This document shows, one piece after another, positions 2,631-20,929 of a DNA stretch of 64,000 nt. Both the position numbers and the translations under genes were made by a program. Below the pieces are notes generated by a model. That model searched no databases and had not been told where the DNA came from. It saw only the letters and a program-made list of their open reading frames with translations. The DNA is from an uncultured Fretibacterium sp. (GTDB taxonomy: Bacteria; Synergistota; Synergistia; Synergistales; Aminobacteriaceae). The stretch's first letter is position 1. Each line of letters starts with the position of its first letter. The stretch covers positions 1 through 64,000 of the forward strand of contig CAMGZM010000009.1 of assembly GCA_946183145.1 (NCBI GenBank), read 5' to 3'.

Positions 2631-3587
2631 CTATTTCTTCTTTTTGCTGCTTTTTTTCACCCCGCTGTCTTTTGCAAAAGCTTTTATCTTGATGAGTTTG
2701 TCAGCCTCCCTTTGTGTGAGCGGCTCTGCTTTGTTTCCTTTCCTGAGGCTTGAAGCCAGACCGCCGTTCTTAATTACCTGCGCATAGCTGAAATCACGCT
2801 GTGAATCCGTAACCTTCACCACAGCAAGAAGCGTTAATTTCCTGCCCATTGATGTGCCGTCAAGGTTGAATACTTCTTTTCCCTCTGAGTAAATCCCGAA
2901 CATGCTCCCGTCGCTGATGCCCCAATTTTTCCCGGCGTTAAGGGTTATTTCTTTTGCGGTGATATTCACAACTTGAATACGGTCTCCGGCTAAGTCTTCT
3001 CGTATCCTGAAACTTGTTCTGAATACAGCCTCAGCGATTGCAGACTCTTCAATGCCCTCGAAAAATTTTCCCATGTCGCTCCTGAAACCGTAAAAATTAA
3101 AGCCCTTGCCACTCCGCGAGGAACTTCCGCTTTCAGAGAATGCCATAATCACTTTGCTTGTTGTAATGTCTACTACACGTACATCAATTGCGGCTATAAC
3201 TTCTTCACGCTTTTCACTGTAAAGCCACAAATCTGTCTCTGAAACTTTGCGCTCAAGATTCGTTACGGAACCGACAAGCATATAGTTGCAGCTCATTAAT
3301 TTACCCAGCTGAACAACTTCGCTGTCGTCAAAAATTCCTGACTGCGCTAACTGATGTTCTTTCGCAAGATCATCAAATCGATCACGTTCAACGACAACAA
3401 GAGACGGTGAATTTGTCAGAACACGCGCAAAAATATCACCGATTGCGGCGGCCTGCTGTTCTGTTACGCCTTCTGCCCTCGAAAGAAATTTCATGACTCC
3501 CAGACGTATAGAGGGATTGCCGTCTGCATTCGCGCATGAAACACACACGCACATCAACAAAAGAAACGATAGTATTATTCTTTTCAT
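2631..3587 (-). CDS. CsgG-like exported protein with C-terminal extension
   Basis: 318 residues. A signal peptide (residues 1-21) is followed by a CsgG/curli-assembly-like domain: 'RLGVMKF' strand, 'VVVERDRFDDLAKEHQLAQSG' helix (about residues 68-90) and 'MLVGSVTN'. Family members act as secretion channels or as periplasmic and lipid-anchored assembly factors. No lipobox is evident beyond the Cys-rich signal peptide, so anchoring is unclear. Residues about 200-290 form an extra beta-rich region ('GKNWGISDGSMFGIY'), and the protein ends in a Lys-rich tail. It lies 7 nt downstream of a second CsgG-like gene (3595-4215) and upstream of the LRR protein gene, all on the minus strand, so the three may be one surface-export unit (inference). 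Confidence 0.7.
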   Translation of the reverse strand: MKRIILSFLLLMCVCVSCANADGNPSIRLGVMKFLSRAEGVTEQQAAAIGDIFARVLTNSPSLVVVERDRFDDLAKEHQLAQSGIFDDSEVVQLGKLMSCNYMLVGSVTNLERKVSETDLWLYSEKREEVIAAIDVRVVDITTSKVIMAFSESGSSSRSGKGFNFYGFRSDMGKFFEGIEESAIAEAVFRTSFRIREDLAGDRIQVVNITAKEITLNAGKNWGISDGSMFGIYSEGKEVFNLDGTSMGRKLTLLAVVKVTDSQRDFSYAQVIKNGGLASSLRKGNKAEPLTQREADKLIKIKAFAKDSGVKKSSKKKK

Positions 3588-3594
3588 GTTAATG

Positions 3595-4215
3595 TTATTC
3601 CTTCCAGTCTCTTGCCTTTATTGCTGTTACGTGTTTCATTACTGCGTCGCGTGTTGCTGAAGCGAGAATGCCGCCGTGTGTCCTCTTGTAGCCGCCTATG
3701 AAGAAGCCTTTATAGCCTCCGAGACTCCCTTTTGCGTCCTGCTTTGAGCTTCCGAGCTGTTCCGATGAGTAAACGATTCTGCCTGTCGTGTTGTCGATAA
3801 TGCGAATCTCAAGGAGTACGTAAGCTGTTTTTGACACGGCCGCGCTGCCTATTATGGGAAGGACGAAGCCCCTGCCTTTCTCATGGTAGTAATAGAGAGT
3901 TATAGCTCCCTCCATACCGTATTGTGCGCTGTGAAGTTTACCGATCTCAAGAACCATAGAGGGATCAATCAAACCTTCCTGGCTGAGTTTCAGCTCCTGC
4001 GCTATGTGGTCGAGCCTCTCACGTTCTACAAGCTCAAAGACTTGTGCCTTGTTCAGCTCAGTAACCATCATGTCCATCACTGCGCCGGCGGGAGCGTCTT
4101 TCTCCTGCGTTCTGTCCTCGAACTGTCTGACGGCCATTCGCGGCAAAGCGTATCCCGTACTCGTCAACATTGCTGCAACTGCGAACACTAATAACCATCT
4201 TGCAATAGTACGCAT
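3595..4215 (-). CDS. CsgG-like exported protein (short)
   Basis: 206 residues. The ORF track starts at a TTG (4221), but AAGGAG lies 9 nt from the ATG at 4215, so I use that start. An N-terminal signal peptide is followed by the CsgG pattern 'MAVRQFEDRT', 'FELVERERLDHIAQELKLSQEG' and 'YGMEGAITLY', then 'LEIRIIDNTTGRIVYS'. It is shorter than the neighbouring 318-residue paralogue and lacks its C-terminal beta region. It is the first gene of the 4215-to-1 minus-strand unit. A role in outer-membrane transport or assembly is inferred only from the family. Confidence 0.7.
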   Translation of the reverse strand: MRTIARWLLVFAVAAMLTSTGYALPRMAVRQFEDRTQEKDAPAGAVMDMMVTELNKAQVFELVERERLDHIAQELKLSQEGLIDPSMVLEIGKLHSAQYGMEGAITLYYYHEKGRGFVLPIIGSAAVSKTAYVLLEIRIIDNTTGRIVYSSEQLGSSKQDAKGSLGGYKGFFIGGYKRTHGGILASATRDAVMKHVTAIKARDWKE

Positions 4216-8167: not shown

Positions 8168-9307
8168 TCAGAATGCTATATCCCTGTAAACAACTTCCCC
8201 GTTCTTGACCGTCATCAATGGCCTGTAAATATATTCGCCGCGCCTCAAATGCCCGGAGCCGTCCGCCCTGTCCCCAAACGTAACAGAAAATTTCTCACGC
8301 CTGAAAATCGCAACATCTGCAGAACTCCCAACGCTAAGAGTCCCCGCGTCAATCTTCATGTGTCTTGCGGGATTTATTGTGCAGAGACGGAATAATTCAT
8401 CTTCAGGGATTCCCATCATGCTGTATTTCGCGAGCTGATTGGCCATGCTGAAAGATGTAGGACGCAAGTACACGCTGAGTTTCGTTATGTCCGTCGCAAG
8501 AATGTCCGGGAAAAATCCTTCACGTATTGCGCGTTCTGCAACGTCAAAACCGAAATGCGCCCGTGCGTCTGAAGCCTCAAATATTACACCGCGTTTTCGT
8601 GCTTCAAGTGCTGACTGTTTCACATGGCCGTTATCATCAATAATAGTGCTTGCCTTGTTCATGTACATGTGCGTAATCACATCGCCTTCACGCAAGTATG
8701 ACAGTAATTCGTCCATTTCGCCGGGGGGATTCGTGCAGTGAACCATGACGGAGAGTCCGAGTCTTTCCGCAAGATTCACAGTCTCACGCAATGGAGCATA
8801 ACCCATATCACCGACAATTTCCGCGCTCGTTCTCAGCTTCAAGCCCAAGAGATTCCCGCGTTCCTCCTCGAAAATTTCGCGGATTTCTCCCTCGTCATAA
8901 TGTGCCGGGTTTACGTCCTCCATTTTCACAGGAAGAGAGTCGAGTCCTGTTGAGCATACGTTGATATAGGCTTTCACAGTGAGCTTTGATTTTGTGATGA
9001 AGTCCTTGTGCTGACGGAAATTTTTTGCGCCTGTGCTGCCTGCGTCCACAACTGTCGTTACTCCTGACGAAAAGCAGACGGACTCGGCGGGGATTCCGAT
9101 TTTCGCGAGGGGGTAAACATGCGAATGATGATCGATTAGTCCCGGCACAACAATACAGCCGGAAGCGTCAACCTCATTCACGGCTTCACCGTCAAGATTT
9201 TTGCTTACGGATGAAATTTTGCCGCCCTCAATCGCTACATCAAGAACATCATGAATATTATTCGCAGGGTCTATCACAGTCCCGTTGCGTATGAGTATCT
9301 GATACAT
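8168..9307 (-). CDS. Amidohydrolase/dihydroorotase-like metallohydrolase
   Basis: 379 residues, AAAGGAGG before the ATG. Amidohydrolase-superfamily layout: a small beta-sandwich made by both termini ('ILIRNGTVIDPANNI' and 'SADVAIFR'), metal-ligand motif 'PGLIDHHSHVYP' (about residues 56-67), 'LKLRTSA' with the likely bridging Lys, 'MVHCTNPP', 'DVITHMYMNK' and 'ILATDITKL' for the last Asp. It resembles the EF_0837/AHA_3915-type hydrolases, often annotated as dihydroorotase or deacetylase-like. No pyrimidine genes lie nearby, so a catabolic cyclic-amide or N-acyl hydrolase role is more likely (inference). The upstream region is taken over by the IS-like remnant ending near 9345. Confidence 0.8.
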   Translation of the reverse strand: MYQILIRNGTVIDPANNIHDVLDVAIEGGKISSVSKNLDGEAVNEVDASGCIVVPGLIDHHSHVYPLAKIGIPAESVCFSSGVTTVVDAGSTGAKNFRQHKDFITKSKLTVKAYINVCSTGLDSLPVKMEDVNPAHYDEGEIREIFEEERGNLLGLKLRTSAEIVGDMGYAPLRETVNLAERLGLSVMVHCTNPPGEMDELLSYLREGDVITHMYMNKASTIIDDNGHVKQSALEARKRGVIFEASDARAHFGFDVAERAIREGFFPDILATDITKLSVYLRPTSFSMANQLAKYSMMGIPEDELFRLCTINPARHMKIDAGTLSVGSSADVAIFRREKFSVTFGDRADGSGHLRRGEYIYRPLMTVKNGEVVYRDIAF

Positions 9308-9339
9308 TTATTCAGCCTCCTTTGTGTAAGATTATAATC

Positions 9340-9765
9340 TCAGTATCATCAAAACATCGCGCGGATACCCCTAGCTTTAGCTATGGACAGGAAGCGCACT
9401 ACTTTACTTTTTGCTTTTTCTCTCTTAAAATTCTTATATATGTTTAGCATAGGCGTTCTGTAAAAGGAACGGATGAAAATACACAACGGTCTTAGAGCCG
9501 TTCCGGGCTGGCATGTCGCCCTTGCGATTTCCGCATAAAAATTGCCAAAACATGAATCGGGGGAGTAAGCCGTAAAAAGTAAGCGGATGAGTAGCAATAC
9601 TCTACCGGGTAGAGGCGAGTACTCCGTAACTACGGCAAGCACGCCCCAGTGAATAAGGGTATTCTGAAGCGGTAACATGCGTGTTCAGACTTTTGTCCGT
9701 GTACCATACTTCTCTGTTCTCGCAGAGCGCGCAAGCATCCGGCTTTAGCTGTGAGGTGGCTTACT
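9340..9765 (-). mobile_element. Structured IS200/IS605-like 3' end remnant (candidate omega-RNA without tnpB)
   Basis: About 425 bp with no convincing gene. Read on the minus strand it starts right after the SprT-like gene's stop. It holds many short inverted repeats, for example CTCTACC/GGTAGAG, CCGTA/TACGG and AACGG/CCGTT. It ends in a subterminal imperfect hairpin around 'CATAGCTAAAGCTAG' followed by 'GGGTATCCGCGCGATG'. That layout, a dense structured RNA then a terminal hairpin, resembles the right end of TnpB transposons that encodes omega-RNA. The two short track ORFs here look like chance reading of this sequence. No transposase gene is attached and no left end was recognised. Identification is from general structure, not from a database match. 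Confidence 0.4.
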
Positions 9766-10480
9766 TCTCCCAATAGTCTAAAGGCATTTCCGTTAAAGTT
9801 CGTTTTGCCTCGCGCCACGCAGGATAATATTTTTCCACGAGACTCCTGAAACGGTTTGTGTGATTCTTCTCCAGAAGGTGAACAAGCTCATGTATTAATA
9901 CGTATTCTATGCACTCAAGTGGTTTTTTCACAAGCTGAAGGTTTATCAGTATATTCTTCCGTGAAATGTTGCAAGATCCCCAGCGCGTTTTCATGTTCCT
10001 AATGTTGCAAGCGTTTACTTTTACGCCGACTCTTTTCTCGCATTCAGGCAATAATATAGCAAGAAATTTCTTGAGTTCTCCCCTGTACCATTCTGTGAGA
10101 AGGCTCTTGCGTTTGTCGGTTTGAGTTCCTTCCGGCACAGTCATTATGATTCTGTTCGGGACTCTCTGAATCTTGCAGCGATTACCCTCGTAAATCACTT
10201 GAAGCATATACGGGACTCCGAAATAGTAACAAGTTTCACCCGATACATATTCGCGTTTAGACTGGCGGAACTGATTGCGGATTCTTTCGCGGGCTTTCGT
10301 GATTTCGGGAATCTTCCGGAGAATGAAATCTTTGATGAGCTTGTCAGAAATTTTTGCGGGCGCGCTGACTGTGATTTTTCCGTCGGGAGGATTAACCCTG
10401 ATGTAAATATTTTTCTGACCGGGGCGTTTCGTTACGTTTGCTTCAAGATTTCCGGCCATGATGATTTTGCTGATCGTCAT
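9761..10480 (-). CDS. SprT/YgjP-like zinc metallopeptidase linked to type I RM
   Basis: 239 residues. The zinc motif 'HELVHLLEKNH' (HExxH plus a third His, about residues 190-200) and the preceding 'NMKTRWGSCN' are the hallmarks of YgjP-like (DUF45/M48-type) metallopeptidases. The ATG overlaps the hsdR stop by 4 bp (ATGA), so it is translationally coupled and the last gene of hsdM-hsdS-hsdR-this. Such peptidases are repeatedly found beside hsdR; a role in turnover or control of the restriction complex is inferred, not shown. The structured remnant at 9340-9765 begins directly after its stop. Confidence 0.8.
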   Translation of the reverse strand: MTISKIIMAGNLEANVTKRPGQKNIYIRVNPPDGKITVSAPAKISDKLIKDFILRKIPEITKARERIRNQFRQSKREYVSGETCYYFGVPYMLQVIYEGNRCKIQRVPNRIIMTVPEGTQTDKRKSLLTEWYRGELKKFLAILLPECEKRVGVKVNACNIRNMKTRWGSCNISRKNILINLQLVKKPLECIEYVLIHELVHLLEKNHTNRFRSLVEKYYPAWREAKRTLTEMPLDYWEK

Positions 10481-13400
10481 TCCGGCTGCGCTTTCAGAAT
10501 CTCAAATATTTCTCTGGTCTCTGACTCTGCTTTGTCGCGTTTTCTCCCTGATGACATCAACACACCGTAAATTATCTCGCATATTTGCCGGGCTTTCTGC
10601 TCGTTTTCACGGAAGCCTGACTCTTTGCCCGCCTCTATTGCTCCGTCAACCTTCAGCGTTAATTTCTCGTCCCCGTCAAGATAGTCATATATTGCCCGGC
10701 GTGTTGCGCTGTCTTTCACGGAGTCGGGATAAGTCTTGTCCTCTTCAGGGTGCAGAACTTTGCGGGCTAAATCTGCAATTTCCGCTAAATATTCCGCGTA
10801 GTCAATCGCTTCACTCTTCCGGCGTTTGATTAAGGCTCTCAGAATTTCCGACAATCTTCCGTAATATATCGCGTTCGTGTTCATTCTCTGCGTGATCTCG
10901 TACGTGATATTGTTCTCTATGATTTCCGGCTTTGCTGAGTCATCGCAGTTTATTTCCCGCAAAACTTCATCAGGCGTTAAATTTTTCCCGTCAGCAAGAA
11001 GTTCAACAAGCGACATATCAGCCAGCGCACTAATAATTTTCGACTCGTCAGCATGTATATATGTGTCGAGAATATAGCGCATGTCAGCCGCGTATGCTTT
11101 CAAGTCAACGTAATCACAGCTTGAGAGCATGACAAGATATTTTATCCTGCTGTACTCGTTAATCTCCCTCCGTATTCTTTCAACATCTTTCACCGTATAG
11201 CCGTAATCAGACTCCAATCTCATGCTGCAATTCCCGAACGAACGTACAGCCGAAGCCGTCAGCCTGTAAAGATTCTCGCGCTCCGTCTGACTCTCATGGC
11301 CGCAAAAGTATTCTACATAGTCCGAATCACGCCGCGAATCCTTCACGCCTGACATCAATTCTTCAAGCCCTCGGAGACTCCCCCGCATTTCCGCTTCTGC
11401 CTCGTCAAATTTCCCCTTCAGGAAGCCTTCAACATCTTTCTTGTCGTATGAGTCAAACGCTCCTGACGTGTAATCTTTCACCGCTGACTCGATGTTCCTG
11501 AATAAGTCCTTATAGTCGATAATATAGCCGTAATCTTTATCCTCACCGTCGCGCCTGTTGACCCTGCATATAGCTTGAAACAAATCATGATCCCTCATGC
11601 TCTTATCGATGTATAAATATGTCGCGTGTGGAGCGTCGAATCCCGTAAGCAATTTGTCGACAACTATCAATAATTTCATCTGCGCGGGCGTTTTCGTGAA
11701 GGATTCTTTTGCGAACTTCTCGAAATTTTCCGGGGTTTGTCCGTTGAGCATACGTTCATAGATTTCTTTCTTGTATTCTTCCTCGCTCTGCTGGCTTGTG
11801 TCTGATGATGCTGTTCGCACGCTTCTTTCTGTCGGCTCATAGGACGTAACGACGGCGCATTTCGTGAATCCTTTCGCCTGAAATATATCCCAGTACTTGC
11901 ACGCCTCGTATATGCTTCCCGCAACAAGCATGGCATTTCCCCGGTCATTCGCGAGTCTCGGCTTCTCGGCCATGTCGAAAATTATATCCGCCGCAATTCG
12001 TTCGAGCCTTTCACGTGAGCTGTATAGCTTGCTGATTGTCGCCCATTGTTGTATCAGTTTGGCCTTTGCGCGAGCAGTCAGTCCGCGAGTCTTGAGGTCA
12101 AAATATCGGTCAACTTTTTCCGGGCTGTCTAAACTCTGTTCTACGTCCCTTGCTTCATATCTCAGGTCAACAACAACGCCGTCATTCACAGCCTCGTTGA
12201 ATTTGTACGTGTGAATATACGCCCCGAATATCGCCAAACTCGTAGGCTTGTCCGACTTCAGCAGAGGAGTCCCCGTAAACCCGATTAATTTCGCGTGAGG
12301 CATCAATCTTTTCATGGCCTGATGCAATTTCCCCGATTGAGTCCTGTGGCACTCGTCAATGAACGCAATAATATTCCCTTTCGCCGCGTAATTTTTCGGC
12401 AGGTTCGCTAACAATTCCCGCGTGTATAGCTCTATGTCAGACTGACTCCCCGCGTTATGTCCGTACTTGTGAATCAGCGAGCAGATTATGAAGTCCGTGT
12501 TATTGTTGAGAATGTTACGGAGATCCGCCCCGCTTTTCGCACGCCTCACGTTTTTTTCTCCCGTCTTCTGAAATACTCCCTCAATCTGTGAGTCAAGCTC
12601 TTCACGGTCCGTTATGATTACGACTCTCCCGTCATCAATATTTTCACGTATCCATTTCGCAAGCCATACCATAATGAGCGATTTCCCGGAGCCTTGAGTG
12701 TTCCAGATTATTCCGCCCTCGCCCTGCATGATTCGAGTCTGCGCAGCACGAACCGCAAAATACTGGTTATGCCTCGCAATCTTTTTCCGTCCATTGTCGA
12801 AAATCACAAAGTCATGTATCAGGTTCAGGAATCTTTCACGATGGCACAATGAGATTATCCCGTCCCGTAATATGTCCCTCTCTTTTGACTGCTCACGGCG
12901 GATTTTCACCGACAAAGAGTCCTCTGCTCTTTCGTCCTCGCGCCATTCAAGATAATATTTCTCCGGGGTCTGAATGACTCCGTAGCGCAGTCCCTGAGAG
13001 CCATTCCCGGCCATGAGTATTTGAACCGTCCCGAAAAAATTCTGTATGCACTCGCTGCTTTGGTTACGAATCATCTGCCTTATTCCCTCGCCGACAGACA
13101 CACGGGAATTTTTCAGCTCAATCATTCCCAATGCGATTCCGTTCACGTAAAGCACTAAGTCCGGGCGTTTCGTCTCATTCAGCGAGATAGTAACTTCCTC
13201 CGCAAACGCAAAATCATTCGCGCCGATGTCCTTCCAGTCGATATAGTTCACAGTAACATCATGGCCGTCTTTGTCCTTAACTCCCATGTCGCCGTAACGC
13301 AATAAGCCGTAAATTTTCTCGTTGAGCTGGTAAAGTGATAAGCTCTGATTTGCGGCTGTGCTTGTGAGGTCATAAATTGCGCGTGTGATTGTCTCCTCGC

Positions 13401-13581
13401 TGTAGTGCCGTGAACGCAGATTTTTCCGCAGAAGGTCATCAATTACGGGAGTGTTGTTCATGTTCTCGCGGCTGCCGAGAAATTCATAATGAAGGTCATC
13501 AATCAGCCAATGCTTTACGCGGTTTTGCAGCTGTCTTTCAGATTCCAATTTTGAGTCGCACCTTTCCTGTGAGAAGATCAT
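10477..13581 (-). CDS. hsdR: Type I restriction enzyme, R (HsdR) subunit
   Basis: 1034 residues, normal HsdR size. N-terminal nuclease domain with 'RPDLVLYVNGIALGMIELK' (PD-(D/E)xK core, about residues 138-156). SF2 motor with Walker A 'TQGSGKSLIMVWLA' (about 296-309), DEAD-like box 'IDECHRTQSGKLH' and 'GFTGTPL', then motif VI-like 'QAICRVNRRDGEDKDYG'. It cuts unmodified DNA after ATP-driven translocation as part of the HsdR2M2S complex. The start (ATG 13581) overlaps the hsdS 3' end by 44 bp and has GGAG 6 nt upstream. All key motifs are present, so it appears functional. Confidence 0.95.
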   Translation of the reverse strand: MIFSQERCDSKLESERQLQNRVKHWLIDDLHYEFLGSRENMNNTPVIDDLLRKNLRSRHYSEETITRAIYDLTSTAANQSLSLYQLNEKIYGLLRYGDMGVKDKDGHDVTVNYIDWKDIGANDFAFAEEVTISLNETKRPDLVLYVNGIALGMIELKNSRVSVGEGIRQMIRNQSSECIQNFFGTVQILMAGNGSQGLRYGVIQTPEKYYLEWREDERAEDSLSVKIRREQSKERDILRDGIISLCHRERFLNLIHDFVIFDNGRKKIARHNQYFAVRAAQTRIMQGEGGIIWNTQGSGKSLIMVWLAKWIRENIDDGRVVIITDREELDSQIEGVFQKTGEKNVRRAKSGADLRNILNNNTDFIICSLIHKYGHNAGSQSDIELYTRELLANLPKNYAAKGNIIAFIDECHRTQSGKLHQAMKRLMPHAKLIGFTGTPLLKSDKPTSLAIFGAYIHTYKFNEAVNDGVVVDLRYEARDVEQSLDSPEKVDRYFDLKTRGLTARAKAKLIQQWATISKLYSSRERLERIAADIIFDMAEKPRLANDRGNAMLVAGSIYEACKYWDIFQAKGFTKCAVVTSYEPTERSVRTASSDTSQQSEEEYKKEIYERMLNGQTPENFEKFAKESFTKTPAQMKLLIVVDKLLTGFDAPHATYLYIDKSMRDHDLFQAICRVNRRDGEDKDYGYIIDYKDLFRNIESAVKDYTSGAFDSYDKKDVEGFLKGKFDEAEAEMRGSLRGLEELMSGVKDSRRDSDYVEYFCGHESQTERENLYRLTASAVRSFGNCSMRLESDYGYTVKDVERIRREINEYSRIKYLVMLSSCDYVDLKAYAADMRYILDTYIHADESKIISALADMSLVELLADGKNLTPDEVLREINCDDSAKPEIIENNITYEITQRMNTNAIYYGRLSEILRALIKRRKSEAIDYAEYLAEIADLARKVLHPEEDKTYPDSVKDSATRRAIYDYLDGDEKLTLKVDGAIEAGKESGFRENEQKARQICEIIYGVLMSSGRKRDKAESETREIFEILKAQPE

Positions 13582-14749
13582 TCATTGCTCCGTCGCATAT
13601 CTGTGAGATTTTTGCGCGTTCGGTTTCGAGTGAAGATATTTCTTTGTCGAGTGCTGAGAGTGTATCAGCGATTGCTATTTGTTCGTCGAGAGTCGGAAGG
13701 GGGATTAGTATGTCCGCTAAAATTTTTCCGCTGAGGCTCGGCAATGCTGTTGTCTGTACGTAATCGCCAAATTTCAATTTCTGCATCAGATACCAGATAA
13801 AGCGACTTGAAATATTTTGAGACGGCTGGAATGACATCATATTATTATCAATACAGCAATCACATGTTGTAATCCTTTTCCTTTCGAGAAAAATAGCTGC
13901 ACCGATTTTTGCGAATATCACAGAAGCTGCGGGAATAATATTGCATGAAAGTTTTTTTGCAACATCATCGGAAATATAATTATTCGCTCTGAACATATAA
14001 TTTTCGTTTCCTTCATTGCTGAAATCTGAAACTTTGTAAAACGGATATGCGCCTTTTCTTTGTCCTTGATGTTTCAAAGGAAAACCGTTACCGCTAACAA
14101 ATTTTCCGCATTCCCCTAATGTTTTCACCTCCCAATCTCCGCAAAAACCTTCAAGCCGAGTCCGCCCGCTCATTAAGTCATCAAGTGCGCCGTCCCGGAT
14201 TGCTTTCTTCTTGGTGATCAGCTCCGTGAGATTCGTTATGTGCGTGTCGAATGCCGCGAGGGTTTCGGCTATTGCTGTTTGTTCTTTGAGCGGGGGAAGT
14301 ATTATCTCTTGAGATTTCAATAAACTTTGATTGATACTCGCTTGATTTACAGCCGGATTTGCGTTGATTCTTGCCCATGTCCTGCTACGTTCAGAAATCA
14401 GCAGATAAAACAAGAAGTCAGCAGAAACATTTACACAAGGAACAAGCCTCAACAAATTAGCTCCGTGATAAAGTTCGGATTCATTTTTGTACTGAGCAAC
14501 TTTTCCAATATGGGCAATCGAATTAATGTTACTGTACAGAATATCGCCAAATCTCAATCTGAAAGAGTCGTCAGGCTTGACATTGCTATAGCCAACTTTA
14601 TGTTCATCAATAAAACCATCAGCAATAGTTTCTATTCTCGTTATTCGATATTTCCCCCTTGTAAGACGAAAATCACCCATAAAGCCAGATGATATTTTGC
14701 ACACTTCACCCAGCTTTTTGACTTCCCAATCACCCGGATATATCACCAT
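13538..14749 (-). CDS. hsdS: Type I restriction enzyme, specificity (HsdS) subunit
   Basis: 403 residues with two half-repeats. Each has a variable target recognition domain (about residues 1-150 and 205-350) followed by a conserved helix region, 'KEQTAIAETLAAFDTHI' and 'DEQIAIADTLSALDKEI'. This is the standard two-TRD layout that recognises a bipartite DNA site; both copies also repeat the 'GDWEVKxLGE' start. It overlaps hsdM by 7 bp and hsdR by 44 bp. The recognition sequence cannot be deduced. No inverted extra hsdS copy that would allow TRD shuffling is visible in the window. Confidence 0.93.
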   Translation of the reverse strand: MVIYPGDWEVKKLGEVCKISSGFMGDFRLTRGKYRITRIETIADGFIDEHKVGYSNVKPDDSFRLRFGDILYSNINSIAHIGKVAQYKNESELYHGANLLRLVPCVNVSADFLFYLLISERSRTWARINANPAVNQASINQSLLKSQEIILPPLKEQTAIAETLAAFDTHITNLTELITKKKAIRDGALDDLMSGRTRLEGFCGDWEVKTLGECGKFVSGNGFPLKHQGQRKGAYPFYKVSDFSNEGNENYMFRANNYISDDVAKKLSCNIIPAASVIFAKIGAAIFLERKRITTCDCCIDNNMMSFQPSQNISSRFIWYLMQKLKFGDYVQTTALPSLSGKILADILIPLPTLDEQIAIADTLSALDKEISSLETERAKISQICDGAMNDLLTGKVRLKIGI

Positions 14750-17076
14750 ACGTAACCCATCCCCCTCAAAGCATTATGCACAGCTTCACGCGATTTTTCC
14801 GTGTCATTCTCAATCTCACCGAGAGTCCGCCCGTACCTTTCTGCAATCATCACGAGACGCGACAAACATACATTCATTACGCCGTCAATTTCCCCGTGAA
14901 TATCCCCCGTCAATCTCGCAGCCCATTTTGAGTCAATCAGCAAGTGCTTTATCTCGTCAACGCTCAAATCACCGTATTGTTTCATCACAGACTCGTCAAG
15001 CTCTTTGTGAAGTCTCTTTGCTTCTTTCAGCTTGGCTTTGATTTCCTTCTCTTTTTCCGATATGGCTTGAAGCGTTTCAGGCGGTAAATCTTCATCAGAC
15101 TCCGAATCTCCGCGCATGTCTTCAATCTCGGAATTAATGTACTCTATTTCGTCCGTTAATGCTTCTATGTCATCAATTTCTTTCTGGAAATATTCACTCT
15201 CTATTATTTCACGCGGGATTAATTCACCGTCCCAGCTTGTGATTTTTCCGTTCTTGTCTTTCTTCACGTCTATCATTCTCCCGGCCTCATAACCGTATGC
15301 GCGTATCATGTAAACGTCATCCTGTAATGTTTCGTTCCAGTAATTCATGAGGCAGTCAAACACGCTGAACTTGTCCACAATCAAAGCACCGTCATAAAGA
15401 CTCAGGATTGACTCGCCGAGTTCGTGAATCAAAATTTTCGGGCTTGTGTCATCGTTAATGTTAAGGAGAGACTCGCGGGCTTTTGTCTTCCATGCGTCAA
15501 AAATTTCTGTGCCTTCCGTGAATTTCTGAGCGCACAAAGACTCGTCATCCTCAAAAATTTTCTCTGCTTCGTCAACGCTGACTCTTAAGCGGTAAATGCC
15601 GCCGGTGAACGCAAAAATTTTCCCTTTCATGGCCGGGGAGATTCGCCAGATTTTAGCGAGCGTGTTAATGTCGTATTCGGGTATACTGCCGTTAAGGTGA
15701 GCTGAAATATTCTGCGGGAGTGTGTCATCGGGCTTCTGAATGTAGCGGGGGACGTTCATATTTCCGCCGTTTTGCTCTAAGATTTCGGAGTAAGGGACGA
15801 GGCGCGAATATCCGTCAATTTCTTCCTGAGCGTTATAGACTCTTACGATTCGTTCTATGTCCTGCTCTCTGAGTCTGTTTTTGTTGCCGTCTTTCTTGAA
15901 GCCGTTACTCGCGTCGATGAAGAAGATATTTTGACGTCCGGGGGCGTTTTCTTTGTCGATGAACATCAAGCAGGCGGGGATTCCTGTTCCGTAAAAGAGA
16001 TTGGGAGGGAGGCTGATTATGCCCTTGATGTATTTCGTTTTGAGGAGGTTGATGCGTATAGTTTCCTCTGCGTTTCCTCTGAACAGTACACCGTGAGGCA
16101 GAACGATTCCGGCTTTACCGTTAGGCTTGAGGGATTTTATGACGTGAAGGAGCCAGGCAAAGTCGCCATTTTTCGCGGGAGGAACTCCGAATCCCTCGAA
16201 GCGGTGAAAGGTATCATCTTCAAGGTTAACGCCGTCGCTCCATGATTTATACGAAAAGGGAGGGTTCATCACAATGAAATCGAATCGCGTCAGCTGCCCG
16301 AATCCGTCCAAAAATTTCGGCTCGGATAAAGTATTTCCCTTCTGAATTTCTGCTGTGCCTCTCTGGTGAAGGATGAAATTCATCTTTGCGAGTCCTGCTG
16401 TTGATATGTCGATTTCCTGGCCGTAAATTTCTGCGAGTGATATACCGTACTCATTCACGGGTGCTTCATCTGCTGCCCTGATGAGGAGGCTTCCGCTGCC
16501 TGCTGCGGGGTCATAGATCTTAACTTTGTCCGTGATGTTTCTGATTCCGATTAGCCGGGCAATGATTCGTGAGACTTCTGCGGGGGTGTAGAACTGCCCT
16601 TTGCTTTTTCCTGACTCCTGTGCGAACTTCATCATGAAGTATTCATACGCATCGCCGATAATGTCATCACCGTCAGCCCTGTTTGACTTGAAATCGAGCG
16701 CGGGATTCTGAAACACTCCGATTAAACCCGACACTTTATCTATTAATTCTTTTCCCGTTCCTAGCTCATTAACATTCTCAAAACTGACTTCAGAGAGTGA
16801 ACCGCGTAACTTGTTTGCGTCAAGGAATCTTTCAAGAGTTTTGTTGACGATTTCGCCGACATTGGGCTTTCCTTTTGCGTCAATGAGAGTCTGAAATGTT
16901 GCGTCTTCAGGGACGGAAAATTTTGCGAACGGTGAATCGCTGTATTTGTCCGAAACATATTTGAAGAACAGGAGAACGAGAACGTAATCTTTGTAGCGAG
17001 CAGGCTCGACTCCTCCGCGTAATTTGTTGCACGCTTCCCACAATGCTGAATAGATTTCTGATTTTTTCACTGGCAT
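14743..17076 (-). CDS. hsdM: Type I DNA methyltransferase (HsdM) with long C-terminal extension
   Basis: 777 residues, longer than the usual roughly 500. HsdM_N helical domain (residues 1-150), SAM motif I 'KIYDPAAGSGSLL' (about 186-198) and catalytic 'FIVMNPPFSY' (about 266-275, NPPF) identify an adenine-N6 methyltransferase. The extra 250 residues include an acidic, charged, probably coiled-coil stretch ('EKEKEIKAKLKEAKRLHKE') and a C-terminal helical part. GGAG lies about 10 nt before the ATG. First gene of the RM operon; transcribed away from the NRPS-like gene at 17197. Confidence 0.93.
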   Translation of the reverse strand: MPVKKSEIYSALWEACNKLRGGVEPARYKDYVLVLLFFKYVSDKYSDSPFAKFSVPEDATFQTLIDAKGKPNVGEIVNKTLERFLDANKLRGSLSEVSFENVNELGTGKELIDKVSGLIGVFQNPALDFKSNRADGDDIIGDAYEYFMMKFAQESGKSKGQFYTPAEVSRIIARLIGIRNITDKVKIYDPAAGSGSLLIRAADEAPVNEYGISLAEIYGQEIDISTAGLAKMNFILHQRGTAEIQKGNTLSEPKFLDGFGQLTRFDFIVMNPPFSYKSWSDGVNLEDDTFHRFEGFGVPPAKNGDFAWLLHVIKSLKPNGKAGIVLPHGVLFRGNAEETIRINLLKTKYIKGIISLPPNLFYGTGIPACLMFIDKENAPGRQNIFFIDASNGFKKDGNKNRLREQDIERIVRVYNAQEEIDGYSRLVPYSEILEQNGGNMNVPRYIQKPDDTLPQNISAHLNGSIPEYDINTLAKIWRISPAMKGKIFAFTGGIYRLRVSVDEAEKIFEDDESLCAQKFTEGTEIFDAWKTKARESLLNINDDTSPKILIHELGESILSLYDGALIVDKFSVFDCLMNYWNETLQDDVYMIRAYGYEAGRMIDVKKDKNGKITSWDGELIPREIIESEYFQKEIDDIEALTDEIEYINSEIEDMRGDSESDEDLPPETLQAISEKEKEIKAKLKEAKRLHKELDESVMKQYGDLSVDEIKHLLIDSKWAARLTGDIHGEIDGVMNVCLSRLVMIAERYGRTLGEIENDTEKSREAVHNALRGMGYVW

Positions 17077-17196
17077 GATATATTTTCTCCGATAGGTTGA
17101 TTTCTTACATCTGCAAATCAGTGAATATTGTATTACATCAAGCAGTTAATCATGAAACTTGACGTAATTTCTTTCTTTGAAGGGTAAAATATCAGC

Positions 17197-20100
17197 ATGA
17201 AAACAATTCACGAAATAATATCAGAATACGCCGTGAAAAATCCTGCAATGAAAGCTGCTGAAGACTCATCAGGCAGTCTCACTTATGCGGAGCTTGACGG
17301 CGAAAGCAATACAGGCGCGAAAATACTTCAGGGACTTGGCGTTATTGTTGGTGATTCTGTCGGCGTTTATGTTCCGTATGTGAAGGACGTAATAACGTGT
17401 GCTTTGTCAGTGTGGAAGACGGGCGCAATCTATATCCCTATGGATGACGCATATCCCGCTGAAAGACTCGAATATATCCTCAGAGACTCAAACGCAAAAG
17501 CTATCCTCACATGCCGGACTCTTTGGGAGAAAAAGCCGCTGAATTTCCCGGCCGATAACGTAATCTTCATTGACGACATAACAGAATGCGGCTCATCATT
17601 CACACCATGTAACACAATCACCGAAAAATCTCCGGCCATGATTCTCTACACTTCCGGCACAACAGGAAGGCCGAAAGGAGTCCTTCACAGGCACGAATTT
17701 TTGACTCACATTGTTGACTGGATGAACGTCGGCGGGGGATTCGAGCTGTCAGAAAGCTCACGTGTGGGACTCATTTCGCGGTTCACGTTTGTTGCGACTG
17801 TAACATTCATGTTCGGCGCATTGCTGAAGGGAGGAACGTTATACTTTGCGAACGAAAACGCAAGGAATGATCTTGAGCATCTGTATGAATTTCTCGCGGA
17901 CAAAGGAATAACCCATATATTCATTGCTTCAGGACTCGCGGCAATTCTCGCTGAGGATTACGACATTTCCGGCGTTAATGTTTTTGCGGCGGGTGAAAAG
18001 CTCCCTAACTTCCGGGCGCATTCAGACTCCGTATATCTCAGAAACATTTACGGATCTACAGAGCTCGGCGTTGTTACGTCAGCGGAAATTCACGGCCAAG
18101 AGAATCCCATCACAATCGGAAAACCCGGGCCGGGCGTAAAAGCAATGCTCATTGATGAAAATCTCAGTCCGTCAAAACCTGATGAAGCAGGCGAACTCCT
18201 GATAGCGTATGAATACATGTCGAGGCAATATCTCAATCTCCCGGAGCAGACAGCGGAGAAATGGACTCAGATTGACGGCCTCACTTGGTACAGGACTGGC
18301 GACAGAGCAACAATGACTCATGACGGGGATATATGCATTCTAGGCAGAACCGACAACATGATAAAGCTGCGGGGATTCAGAATCGAAACGGGCGAGGTTG
18401 AGTCGCAGGTGTCAAAAGCTGTAACAGGAATCGGGCGCGATGACGTGAAAAACATTGTCGTATGTCTGCGAACCGTAAGCAGGAATGATTATCTTGTCTG
18501 CTACTACGAGTCGGAAAATGACCTTGACGCAAACGAAATCAGAACGGTGAAAACGGAAGCCGCAAAATATCTCGCTGACTACATGATCCCCGATATATTT
18601 ATGAGAGTCGCCCGAATGCCCCGCAACCTTAACGGGAAAATCATACGCAAAGACCTTCCGCAGCCAAAATCGCACACTCACGAAATCACCGCCCTTGACA
18701 GTGAGACTCTTGCGAGGGTCGTGTGGGCTGTTTCTGACGTTCTGGGAATCTCATCGGCTGAACCTGAAGACACATTCACGGAGCTTGGCGGCTCATCAAT
18801 CACGGCCATGAAGCTCGCGGCGTTGTTGCGTCCTCAAGGCATAAAGATTACGACAGCGCAGATACTGAAGCTGAATGTTTTGCGGAAAATTGCTGACGCT
18901 GCTGAAGTAGATTACGCTAAATTGTGGTCAGAGGAAGAATACAGCGCGGTAATTGCCGATTTTGCGTCAAGGGGAGAACACATACAGAAAGTACTTCCCA
19001 TTACAGCACAACAAGATGATATGCTGTTCGACTACTTGCTTTACCCCGACAGAAACAGCTTCAGATCCGTTTACATACTTCAGGCTGACAGCGTTATAAC
19101 AGAGGAAAATTTGCGGCTCGCGCTTGATACTGTCTCACAAGAAAATGAAGAGCTGCGATCATCTATCGTATTTCACCGCACACGGGTTATACAGCAGGTG
19201 ATAACAGACAGGAAGATTCCCGCAAAATTCGTGAACATGAACAATCTTGATGACAGGAATCTCCAAATCGCATGGAATATATTTCAAAGTCCCATTGATT
19301 TGCAGAGAGACACATTAATGCGTGTCGTTTGCGGAGAGTTTTTCGGGAAAAGTTTCCTGTACATAATGACGAGTCATATCAGCTTCACAAAAGAACAGAC
19401 GCGTAAATATATCGCCCGTATAATGTCAGTGCTTGAGGAAAAATATCCTGATGACAAATCGATTCATGGCTGGCGGGAAATTTTTGACGGGAATCTCACG
19501 GAAAATTTTGCGGAAAAAACGAAATCCCGCGGCGAGTCAAAGCTGAGAGAACTTGACCGATCAAGAAGCAATATTCCCCCGGAAATCTGCATTTACTCCG
19601 AGAACAGCGGCCCTAAAATGACGTTCATTCACACAGGCAACACAGGAAGCGAAGCATATTACCGTCTCGCGGACAGAATCAGGGACAAGATTTATTTCTC
19701 TGTGATTGAGCCGTTCAACTTGTGGCACATTGAGGAGGCTACATACGGTATACCGAACATCGCAAAAAGGTACATAGAGATTCTCAAGCGTCATCAGCCC
19801 GAAGGCCCGTATATTTTGGGCGGATGGTGTTACGGCGGAATGATAGCCCACGAAATGGCATGTCAGCTTCAGGAAGCAGGCGAGGAAGTGAAATATCTCT
19901 TCATGCTCGACTCACACGCAACGACAGACCCCGCGTTAAGGCAGATGGCACAAAGCATGTATGACGCGTCGGGGCGTGAATATTTCGAGACAAGCCCGCT
20001 TTTTGCGGATCTCCGTGAAGCTGGAATGCTTGAAACTATGATAATCAACTCGGAGCATGTTTATCACGACATGGCCGCTCATATGCCTTCATTCTTCAAC

Positions 20101-20328
20101 GGTGCTGTAACATACTTCAAGCCCGATGTGATTCCGGCAGAATCTTCCGGGGACGCACGAAAATATTGGGAGAGAATGATGGAGTTCCCCGCCGGTAATT
20201 ACAGGCCATTCTGCAACAGGGATTTATTCCGAATCATTCACACACCGCACGAGCATGATTTGATGATGGATGATGCTTCACTTGATATTATTGTCCCGGA
20301 AATTTTCAGGGCATTGGGCATAAAGTGA
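17197..20328 (+). CDS. Monomodular NRPS-like protein: A-PCP-degenerate C-like-thioesterase (Cys)
   Basis: 1043 residues. Adenylation domain, about 1-490: 'ILYTSGTTGRPKG' (A3), 'NIYGSTELG' (A5), 'YRTGD' (A7), 'NGKIIRKDL' (A10 Lys). Carrier domain, about 500-575: 'ELGGSSI', Ser534 as the phosphopantetheine site. Residues 590-770 resemble half a condensation domain, but HHxxxDG reads 'SHISFTK', so it is probably inactive. Thioesterase, 800-1043: 'GGWCYGG' with Cys878 in place of Ser, Asp905 in 'FMLDSH' and His1020. The position usually holding Asp235, which binds the alpha-amino group, is Val199, so an alpha-amino acid substrate is doubtful. A matching Sfp-type activator follows 6 nt downstream. 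Product unknown. Confidence 0.85.
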   Translation: MKTIHEIISEYAVKNPAMKAAEDSSGSLTYAELDGESNTGAKILQGLGVIVGDSVGVYVPYVKDVITCALSVWKTGAIYIPMDDAYPAERLEYILRDSNAKAILTCRTLWEKKPLNFPADNVIFIDDITECGSSFTPCNTITEKSPAMILYTSGTTGRPKGVLHRHEFLTHIVDWMNVGGGFELSESSRVGLISRFTFVATVTFMFGALLKGGTLYFANENARNDLEHLYEFLADKGITHIFIASGLAAILAEDYDISGVNVFAAGEKLPNFRAHSDSVYLRNIYGSTELGVVTSAEIHGQENPITIGKPGPGVKAMLIDENLSPSKPDEAGELLIAYEYMSRQYLNLPEQTAEKWTQIDGLTWYRTGDRATMTHDGDICILGRTDNMIKLRGFRIETGEVESQVSKAVTGIGRDDVKNIVVCLRTVSRNDYLVCYYESENDLDANEIRTVKTEAAKYLADYMIPDIFMRVARMPRNLNGKIIRKDLPQPKSHTHEITALDSETLARVVWAVSDVLGISSAEPEDTFTELGGSSITAMKLAALLRPQGIKITTAQILKLNVLRKIADAAEVDYAKLWSEEEYSAVIADFASRGEHIQKVLPITAQQDDMLFDYLLYPDRNSFRSVYILQADSVITEENLRLALDTVSQENEELRSSIVFHRTRVIQQVITDRKIPAKFVNMNNLDDRNLQIAWNIFQSPIDLQRDTLMRVVCGEFFGKSFLYIMTSHISFTKEQTRKYIARIMSVLEEKYPDDKSIHGWREIFDGNLTENFAEKTKSRGESKLRELDRSRSNIPPEICIYSENSGPKMTFIHTGNTGSEAYYRLADRIRDKIYFSVIEPFNLWHIEEATYGIPNIAKRYIEILKRHQPEGPYILGGWCYGGMIAHEMACQLQEAGEEVKYLFMLDSHATTDPALRQMAQSMYDASGREYFETSPLFADLREAGMLETMIINSEHVYHDMAAHMPSFFNGAVTYFKPDVIPAESSGDARKYWERMMEFPAGNYRPFCNRDLFRIIHTPHEHDLMMDDASLDIIVPEIFRALGIK

Positions 20329-20334
20329 AAAAAT

Positions 20335-20925
20335 GTGCGGCTGACTCTTCTCGACATTCGCGGACTCAGGCCGAAATCTGAAGAATTATTGCGTGGACTC
20401 CCTGAAGAGTTACGGAAAAAGGCATTGCGTTACAGAAAGGAAGATGACCAGTTACGCAGCATAGGGTCATCTTTTTTGCTGCTCAAAGCCTCAAAGGGTC
20501 AAGAGATTCATTACAGCCCTGAAGGAAAGCCGTTTGTTGACGGAGAATTTTACTTCAGCATTTCACACAGCGGTGATTATGTTGTGCTTGCTGAATGTGA
20601 TTCGCCTGTTGGTGTTGACGTTGAGAGAGTCGCGGACATTGGGATTAATGACGGCTTGAAGGATATAGCATTGACTGAGAGGGAAAAACTTTTCGTGAAA
20701 GATTCATTGCTGAGATTTTATGTTGTGTGGACGAGAAAAGAGAGCCTCATTAAATGCGAGGGGCACGGATTCATTTCAGAGCCTAACCAGATTGAAACGC
20801 TTGACGATGAAAATTTTGACGCTCCTGTGAAGTACGAGGGAAAATTTTACCGCATAGAAAGTTTTATGCTTGACGGACATGTAATATCATGTGCTGTAAT
20901 TGACTGCCCTGCAAATCATGTGTAA
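20335..20925 (+). CDS. Sfp-type 4'-phosphopantetheinyl transferase
   Basis: 196 residues, GTG start, 6 nt after the NRPS stop and with a weak ribosome site, so probably coupled to it. Three family motifs are visible: 'FYFSISHSGDYVVLAE', 'PVGVDVERVADIG' (Mg-binding Asp/Glu) and 'FYVVWTRKESLIK' (W-x-x-K-E-A/S). It transfers phosphopantetheine from CoA to a carrier Ser; the obvious substrate is Ser534 of the neighbouring NRPS-like protein. It is on the short side for Sfp (usually about 220-230 residues), but no motif is missing. Confidence 0.88.
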   Translation: MRLTLLDIRGLRPKSEELLRGLPEELRKKALRYRKEDDQLRSIGSSFLLLKASKGQEIHYSPEGKPFVDGEFYFSISHSGDYVVLAECDSPVGVDVERVADIGINDGLKDIALTEREKLFVKDSLLRFYVVWTRKESLIKCEGHGFISEPNQIETLDDENFDAPVKYEGKFYRIESFMLDGHVISCAVIDCPANHV

Positions 20926-20929
20926 GGAT

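Follow-up and report, generated by a model that had tools for sequence, protein, structure and literature searches.

A synthetase gene with a half condensation domain and a cysteine thioesterase in an uncultured Fretibacterium sp., and its probable link to an R-terminated NRPS

The gene pair and its domains

We report the analysis of a 64,000-nucleotide stretch of DNA (the window) from an uncultured Fretibacterium sp., in which an uninterrupted open reading frame of 1043 amino acids (17197-20328, forward strand, as are all the features of the gene pair) encodes a synthetase whose domains, in Pfam matches and in orthologues, stand in the order adenylation (A), carrier (T or PCP), half condensation (half-C) and thioesterase (TE), just as an earlier note on this DNA had proposed. 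Six bases after this gene lies that of an Sfp-type phosphopantetheinyl transferase (PPTase; 20335-20925), which has the size of this type (about 200 amino acids) and matches the Pfam ACPS family with 40.8 bits against a cut-off of 25.

The A domain (17197-18681, approximately residues 1-495; Pfam AMP-binding at 12-346, and alignment) has Val199 (17791-17793), within the motif FTFVATVTF, at the position of Asp235, so that the absence of this aspartate is borne out, and its A5 motif reads NIYGSTE, with Ser for the Pro of GPTE. The T domain (18682-18951, residues 496-585; Pfam PP-binding at 511-568) contains the motif LGGSS and the predicted phosphopantetheine serine, Ser534 (18796-18798). The half-C domain (18952-19566, residues 586-790, some 205 amino acids), recognised by Pfam and from the homologues, consists of the N-terminal lobe only: the Pfam Condensation match (597-711) covers profile positions 2-122 of 456, with 28.8 bits against a cut-off of 30.6, and SHISFTK (726-732) stands in the place of HHxxxDG. 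In the TE domain (19567-20325, residues 791-1043; Pfam Thioesterase at 810-911) the GxSxG region reads GWCYG, within GGWCYGG, and the candidate catalytic residues are Cys878 (19828-19830), Asp905 (19909-19911) and His1020 (20254-20256). The residue numbers that had been given for Val199 and Cys878 are correct.

Six sequences were aligned, namely the window protein, its orthologues from three genomes of the same genus (80-92% identity), one from a Bacteroidaceae MAG (L050, 53%) and one, the C-terminal half only, from a Lachnospiraceae MAG (L052, 55%), and these span MAGs of the Synergistota, Bacteroidota and Bacillota. L050 and L052 being MAGs, binning errors are possible, although the 67-kb L050 contig also has genes that look, by eye, like those of Bacteroidota. 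Cys878, Asp905 and His1020 are invariant in all six sequences, as is Asp977 of the TE, whilst HHxxxDG is lost in every homologue (SHISFTK, HNIAISQ or HSIAFDA) and the length and many residues of the half-C domain are fixed. An active NRPS condensation domain has two lobes and HHxxxDG, and the half-C domain has neither: its profile, searched against solved condensation domains (best E 6.5e-9), matches over positions 1-132 of 204, ending at the HHxxxDG region, and this search found no C-terminal lobe. The nearest solved TE by profile is that of NocB. A structure model of the half-C and TE domains (residues 586-1043, four input sequences) reached a pLDDT of 43 and was not used as evidence.

Because the homologues keep them, the odd traits of this protein are, on the alignment, fixed features and neither errors nor decay. 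A sequencing error at Cys878 is ruled out by its invariance in all homologues, which supports the proposed cysteine nucleophile, and the view that the middle region belongs to a full, active condensation domain is ruled out by its half size and its want of HHxxxDG throughout, as the earlier note had supposed in calling this domain dead. A full TE match is kept in 4 of 185 Synergistota genomes, all of one genus, and a fifth carrier (G022) has a gene cut by the end of its contig. The nearest named records are Fretibacterium and Synergistaceae MAGs, two of which came from the reticulum of goats and a third from the rumen of water buffalo, which fits the suggestion of a gut anaerobe. In the open-licence literature we found no description of a half-condensation domain with a cysteine TE, nor of such a pathway in the rumen.

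An R-terminated NRPS as the putative partner

In two genomes of the same genus, G030 and G040, a multimodular NRPS ending in a thioester reductase (R) domain, the A-T-halfC-TE gene and the PPTase gene follow one another in this order, placed almost end to end or sharing a short overlap. The junction between the NRPS and the A-T-halfC-TE gene, again with few intervening bases, is likewise kept in G003 and G022, of the same genus, and in G003 the PPTase gene again comes next. L050 has an R-terminated NRPS followed by the A-T-halfC-TE gene; in L052 the A-T-halfC-TE gene comes first and is followed by an NRPS that is truncated where the contig stops. Linkage to an NRPS is thus found in 6/6 other carrier genomes, with an R domain in every partner NRPS whose 3' end is covered. 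The partner in the genome of the window lies elsewhere, in the central part of a contig of 90 kb (C11; L041:5793-13814, 2673 amino acids). The description of the synthetase as self-contained and as a single module therefore finds no support, an R-terminated NRPS being directly upstream in G030, G040, G003, G022 and L050 and present on C11 here.

By Pfam, the C11 NRPS comprises a C domain, the C-terminal lobe of a second C domain and then A-T-C-A-T-R, with intact R motifs (TGATGYLG and YIHSK). This is the core of AusA in the AusAB system (aureusimine or phevalin, Staphylococcus aureus), which consists of an A-T-C-A-T-R NRPS and a dedicated PPTase (PMC12153313). The best NCBIfam matches of the NRPS and of the window PPTase are indeed AusA (NF047350) and AusB, but both remain far under the curated cut-offs (1107 bits against 2500, which is not reached, and 52 against 225), and the system described here differs further in its additional N-terminal C domains and in the additional A-T-halfC-TE protein. 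In the genome of the window (L041:5793-7600) the first C domain of the NRPS is unlike its counterpart in G030 and G040 (HHIAFDA), and the second, of which only the C-terminal lobe is present, is complete in the relatives; the G030 NRPS (L039:5935-14532) has tandem C domains and looks to have lost one internal A-T unit with respect to G040.

The dN/dS ratio of the A-T-halfC-TE gene is 0.17-0.18 over its whole length, 0.21-0.23 in the half-C domain and 0.09-0.13 in the TE, and that of the NRPS from A to R is 0.12-0.13 in all pairs; dS is similar in the two, at 0.26-0.33 and 0.32-0.39, respectively. These low ratios and similar dS values show the two putative halves of the pathway to be under purifying selection and of like age and constraint. 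From gene order and substitution rates taken together, the A-T-halfC-TE protein and the NRPS very probably belong to the same pathway.

Two PPTases exceed the cut-off in the genome of the window, AcpS and the window PPTase, with a third match below it, and the count above the cut-off is identical in G030 and G040. The earlier note had spoken of the synthetase's own Sfp activator. An Sfp-type PPTase does adjoin the gene, but its service need not be exclusive: as the only one of this type found in the genome it would, from what is known of the family, probably serve both the NRPS and the A-T-halfC-TE protein.

Separation of the gene pair from the NRPS

Directly upstream of the A-T-halfC-TE gene, at 17134-17188 on the forward strand, the sequence repeats in degraded form the 3'-terminal 55 bp of the partner NRPS gene. 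This remnant has 9 mismatches to the copy on C11, against 25 for the next-best place in the window, and intact NRPS 3' ends differ among themselves by 1-5. The gene pair forms the end of an island of about 11.6 kb (9311-20927) that also holds a YgjP-like metallopeptidase gene and hsdR, hsdS and hsdM of a type I restriction-modification system. This island is missing from the same site in eight relatives. What separates the amidohydrolase gene (8168-9307 in the window) from the TctA block (from 20928) in these eight is either a gap of no more than some 20 bases or a single other gene of about 270-310 amino acids, and we therefore take approximately 9311-20927 to be an insertion.

Given the NRPS 3'-end scar directly upstream, the lone state of the gene pair is a derived one, and the pair has, on this reading of the sequence, moved away from the NRPS in this genome; the surroundings of the C11 NRPS showed no trace of the A-T-halfC-TE gene. 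An assembly error is a less likely cause of the split, as each locus is embedded in a long contig and the scar has diverged. The locus is thus a clear case in which relocation appears to have split an NRPS operon, left a scar and taken with it the only Sfp-type activator of the pathway.

Two other origins were considered and rejected. A recent horizontal arrival of the gene pair is at odds with its identity to G030 and G040 (90-91%), which is within the range of other regions of the genome (82-92%), and the similar dS of both halves from these two genomes (0.26-0.29 for the A-T-halfC-TE gene, 0.32-0.39 for the NRPS) likewise indicates that the pair is no recent arrival from afar. A plasmid origin was rejected as no plasmid record matched at an identity of at least 60%.

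The site between the amidohydrolase gene and the tctA block looks to be a hot spot for insertion, other single genes being found there elsewhere: a 269-amino-acid gene with an HNH domain in L073 (1371-2177) and similar-looking genes in L069, L071 and L076. Nuclease- or restriction-like genes also lie upstream of the C11 NRPS (L041:88-4204, with a NucS C-terminal domain in 3404-4201), so that both halves adjoin defence-like genes in this genome.

Substrate, proposed reaction and alternatives

The code of the A domain, from position 235 to 331, reads V-A-T-F-F-A-I-V-V and that of L050 reads V-A-M-F-F-A-L-P-I, both with Ser for the Pro of GPTE, whereas the NRPS A domains with which they were compared all retain Asp235 and this Pro. 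Valine at the first code position is found in the homologues as well, and is characteristic of alpha-keto-acid synthetases (PMC10316625); in the sole solved alpha-keto-acid A domain an aliphatic residue occupies position 235 and the GPTE Pro is lost (PMC11253843). McyG has Val at 235 yet activates L-Phe (PMC11253843), so that Val235 alone cannot exclude amino acids. It is the conservation of both changes in the window and in L050 that makes the earlier claim of a substrate other than an ordinary alpha-amino acid a probable one, and we consider it likely that the substrate is not an amino acid.

The A domain groups (support 98/94) with that of an A-T-C protein from a genome of the same order (G062, L047), which has Ile at 235 and the same Ser for Pro but differs in having a full C domain, with HHLLMDG, and no TE. 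The ancestor was therefore plausibly a starter or acyl-loading module, and the A-T-halfC-TE protein may have arisen from such an acyl-loading module by loss of the C-terminal lobe and gain of a TE.

A catalytic Cys for Ser, as in the window TE, is found in the TEs of ObiF1 (obafluorin) and SulM (sulfazecin), and RalA-type enzymes have a Cys in the TE. In ObiF1, Cys1146 is followed by Gly1173 at Cys+27, with Asp1254 on a later strand (PMC6668435); the window TE has the invariant Asp905 at Cys+27, and Asp977 is also invariant. The hint at beta-lactone formation in the earlier note retains the catalytic cysteine in its favour, but an ObiF-type reading of it is weakened by Asp905.

On balance we favour the reading that the A-T-halfC-TE protein is an accessory second protein of an R-terminated NRPS pathway, split from the NRPS in this genome. 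The PPTase would prime both proteins, and the A domain would adenylate a hydrophobic carboxylic acid with no amino group at the alpha position (an alpha-keto, alpha-hydroxy or simple acyl acid) and load it onto Ser534. The half-C domain, presumably unable to form peptide bonds, might persist for docking or as a spacer. From the carrier the acyl group would then move to Cys878, and the TE would transfer it in trans onto the NRPS product, be this a peptide or a peptide aldehyde; the R domain predicts the latter, which may cyclise to a pyrazinone. We put forward acyl transfer in trans only tentatively as the reaction of this protein. Two points speak against this reading: a TE beside an R-terminated NRPS would place two release activities in one pathway, and the L050 NRPS, which begins with an A domain, offers no starter C domain as an acceptor.

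Gut NRPS peptide aldehydes are reactive protease inhibitors, and the accessory genes of their pathways are little studied. For the dipeptide aldehydes of anaerobic gut bacteria (ruminopeptin and related compounds) reductase release is expected to give peptide aldehydes, as here, and the excerpted text of the paper mentions no second protein with a half-C domain and a cysteine TE (PMC12327764). A wider proposal, more speculative still, is that a Cys-dependent acyltransferase, conserved across three phyla of gut and rumen bacteria, acts in trans on the product of an R-terminated NRPS. Each such pathway would then have two release domains and yield peptide aldehydes or alcohols capped with an acyl or ester group, a class not yet described. 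The conserved companion protein, with its A domain without Asp235, its half-C domain and its cysteine TE, predicts a product that carries a cap or another modification and that a single-locus search would miss, above all where, as in this genome, the halves lie apart.

The best of the alternatives, though we think it unlikely, makes the A-T part a supplier of starter units: the first C domain of the NRPS would accept the acyl group from it to give N-acyl peptide aldehydes, and the TE would do no more than clear mis-loaded carriers. The NRPSs of this genome, G030 and G040 do begin with a C domain, and the related G062 protein, with its intact C domain, adjoins an acyltransferase gene. The L050 NRPS, however, begins with an A domain, without a starter C, and no second NRPS gene lies upstream of it, so that transfer to a starter C domain cannot, as judged from these gene layouts, explain every case; a dN/dS of 0.09-0.13 and an invariant Cys would also be odd for a simple editing TE.

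We regard as improbable a self-contained single-module synthetase in which, following the A-T-TE logic of the alpha-keto-acid quinone and furanone synthetases, the cysteine TE turns the loaded acid into a dimer or a ring and the NRPS is an incidental neighbour. A-T-TE synthetases (atromentin, polyporic acid) do combine A, T and TE in one protein with Val at code position 1 (PMC10316625), an A-T-TE protein with GFCYG occurs in another genome of the Synergistota, and the gene stands physically alone here; but such synthetases are tri-domain, and the half-C domain, conserved between T and TE in the present protein, is foreign to their layout, the clade of the window A domain does not include those of the A-T-TE proteins from Synergistota, and both the NRPS linkage in 6/6 other carriers and the derived nature of the lone state speak against it. 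The weakest reading, a relocated gene pair that no longer works in this strain, could draw on the distance from the NRPS, the decayed NRPS tail upstream, the changed N-terminus of the partner NRPS and a promoter scan in which the number of sites was not above chance and none lay upstream of the gene, but it is made very improbable by the intact reading frame, by dN/dS values in pairs that include the window copy (0.175, 0.181) like that between operon copies (0.170), and by the adjoining, sole Sfp-type PPTase.

The A-T-TE protein with GFCYG (L028:1000-3519) represents a second cysteine-type thioesterase in the phylum. RND efflux genes adjoin the NRPS both in the genome of the window and in L050, and the former genome also has a stand-alone adenylation gene that is apparently cut by the ends of contigs C22 and C8 (L054:1-1167 and L055:5644-6000).
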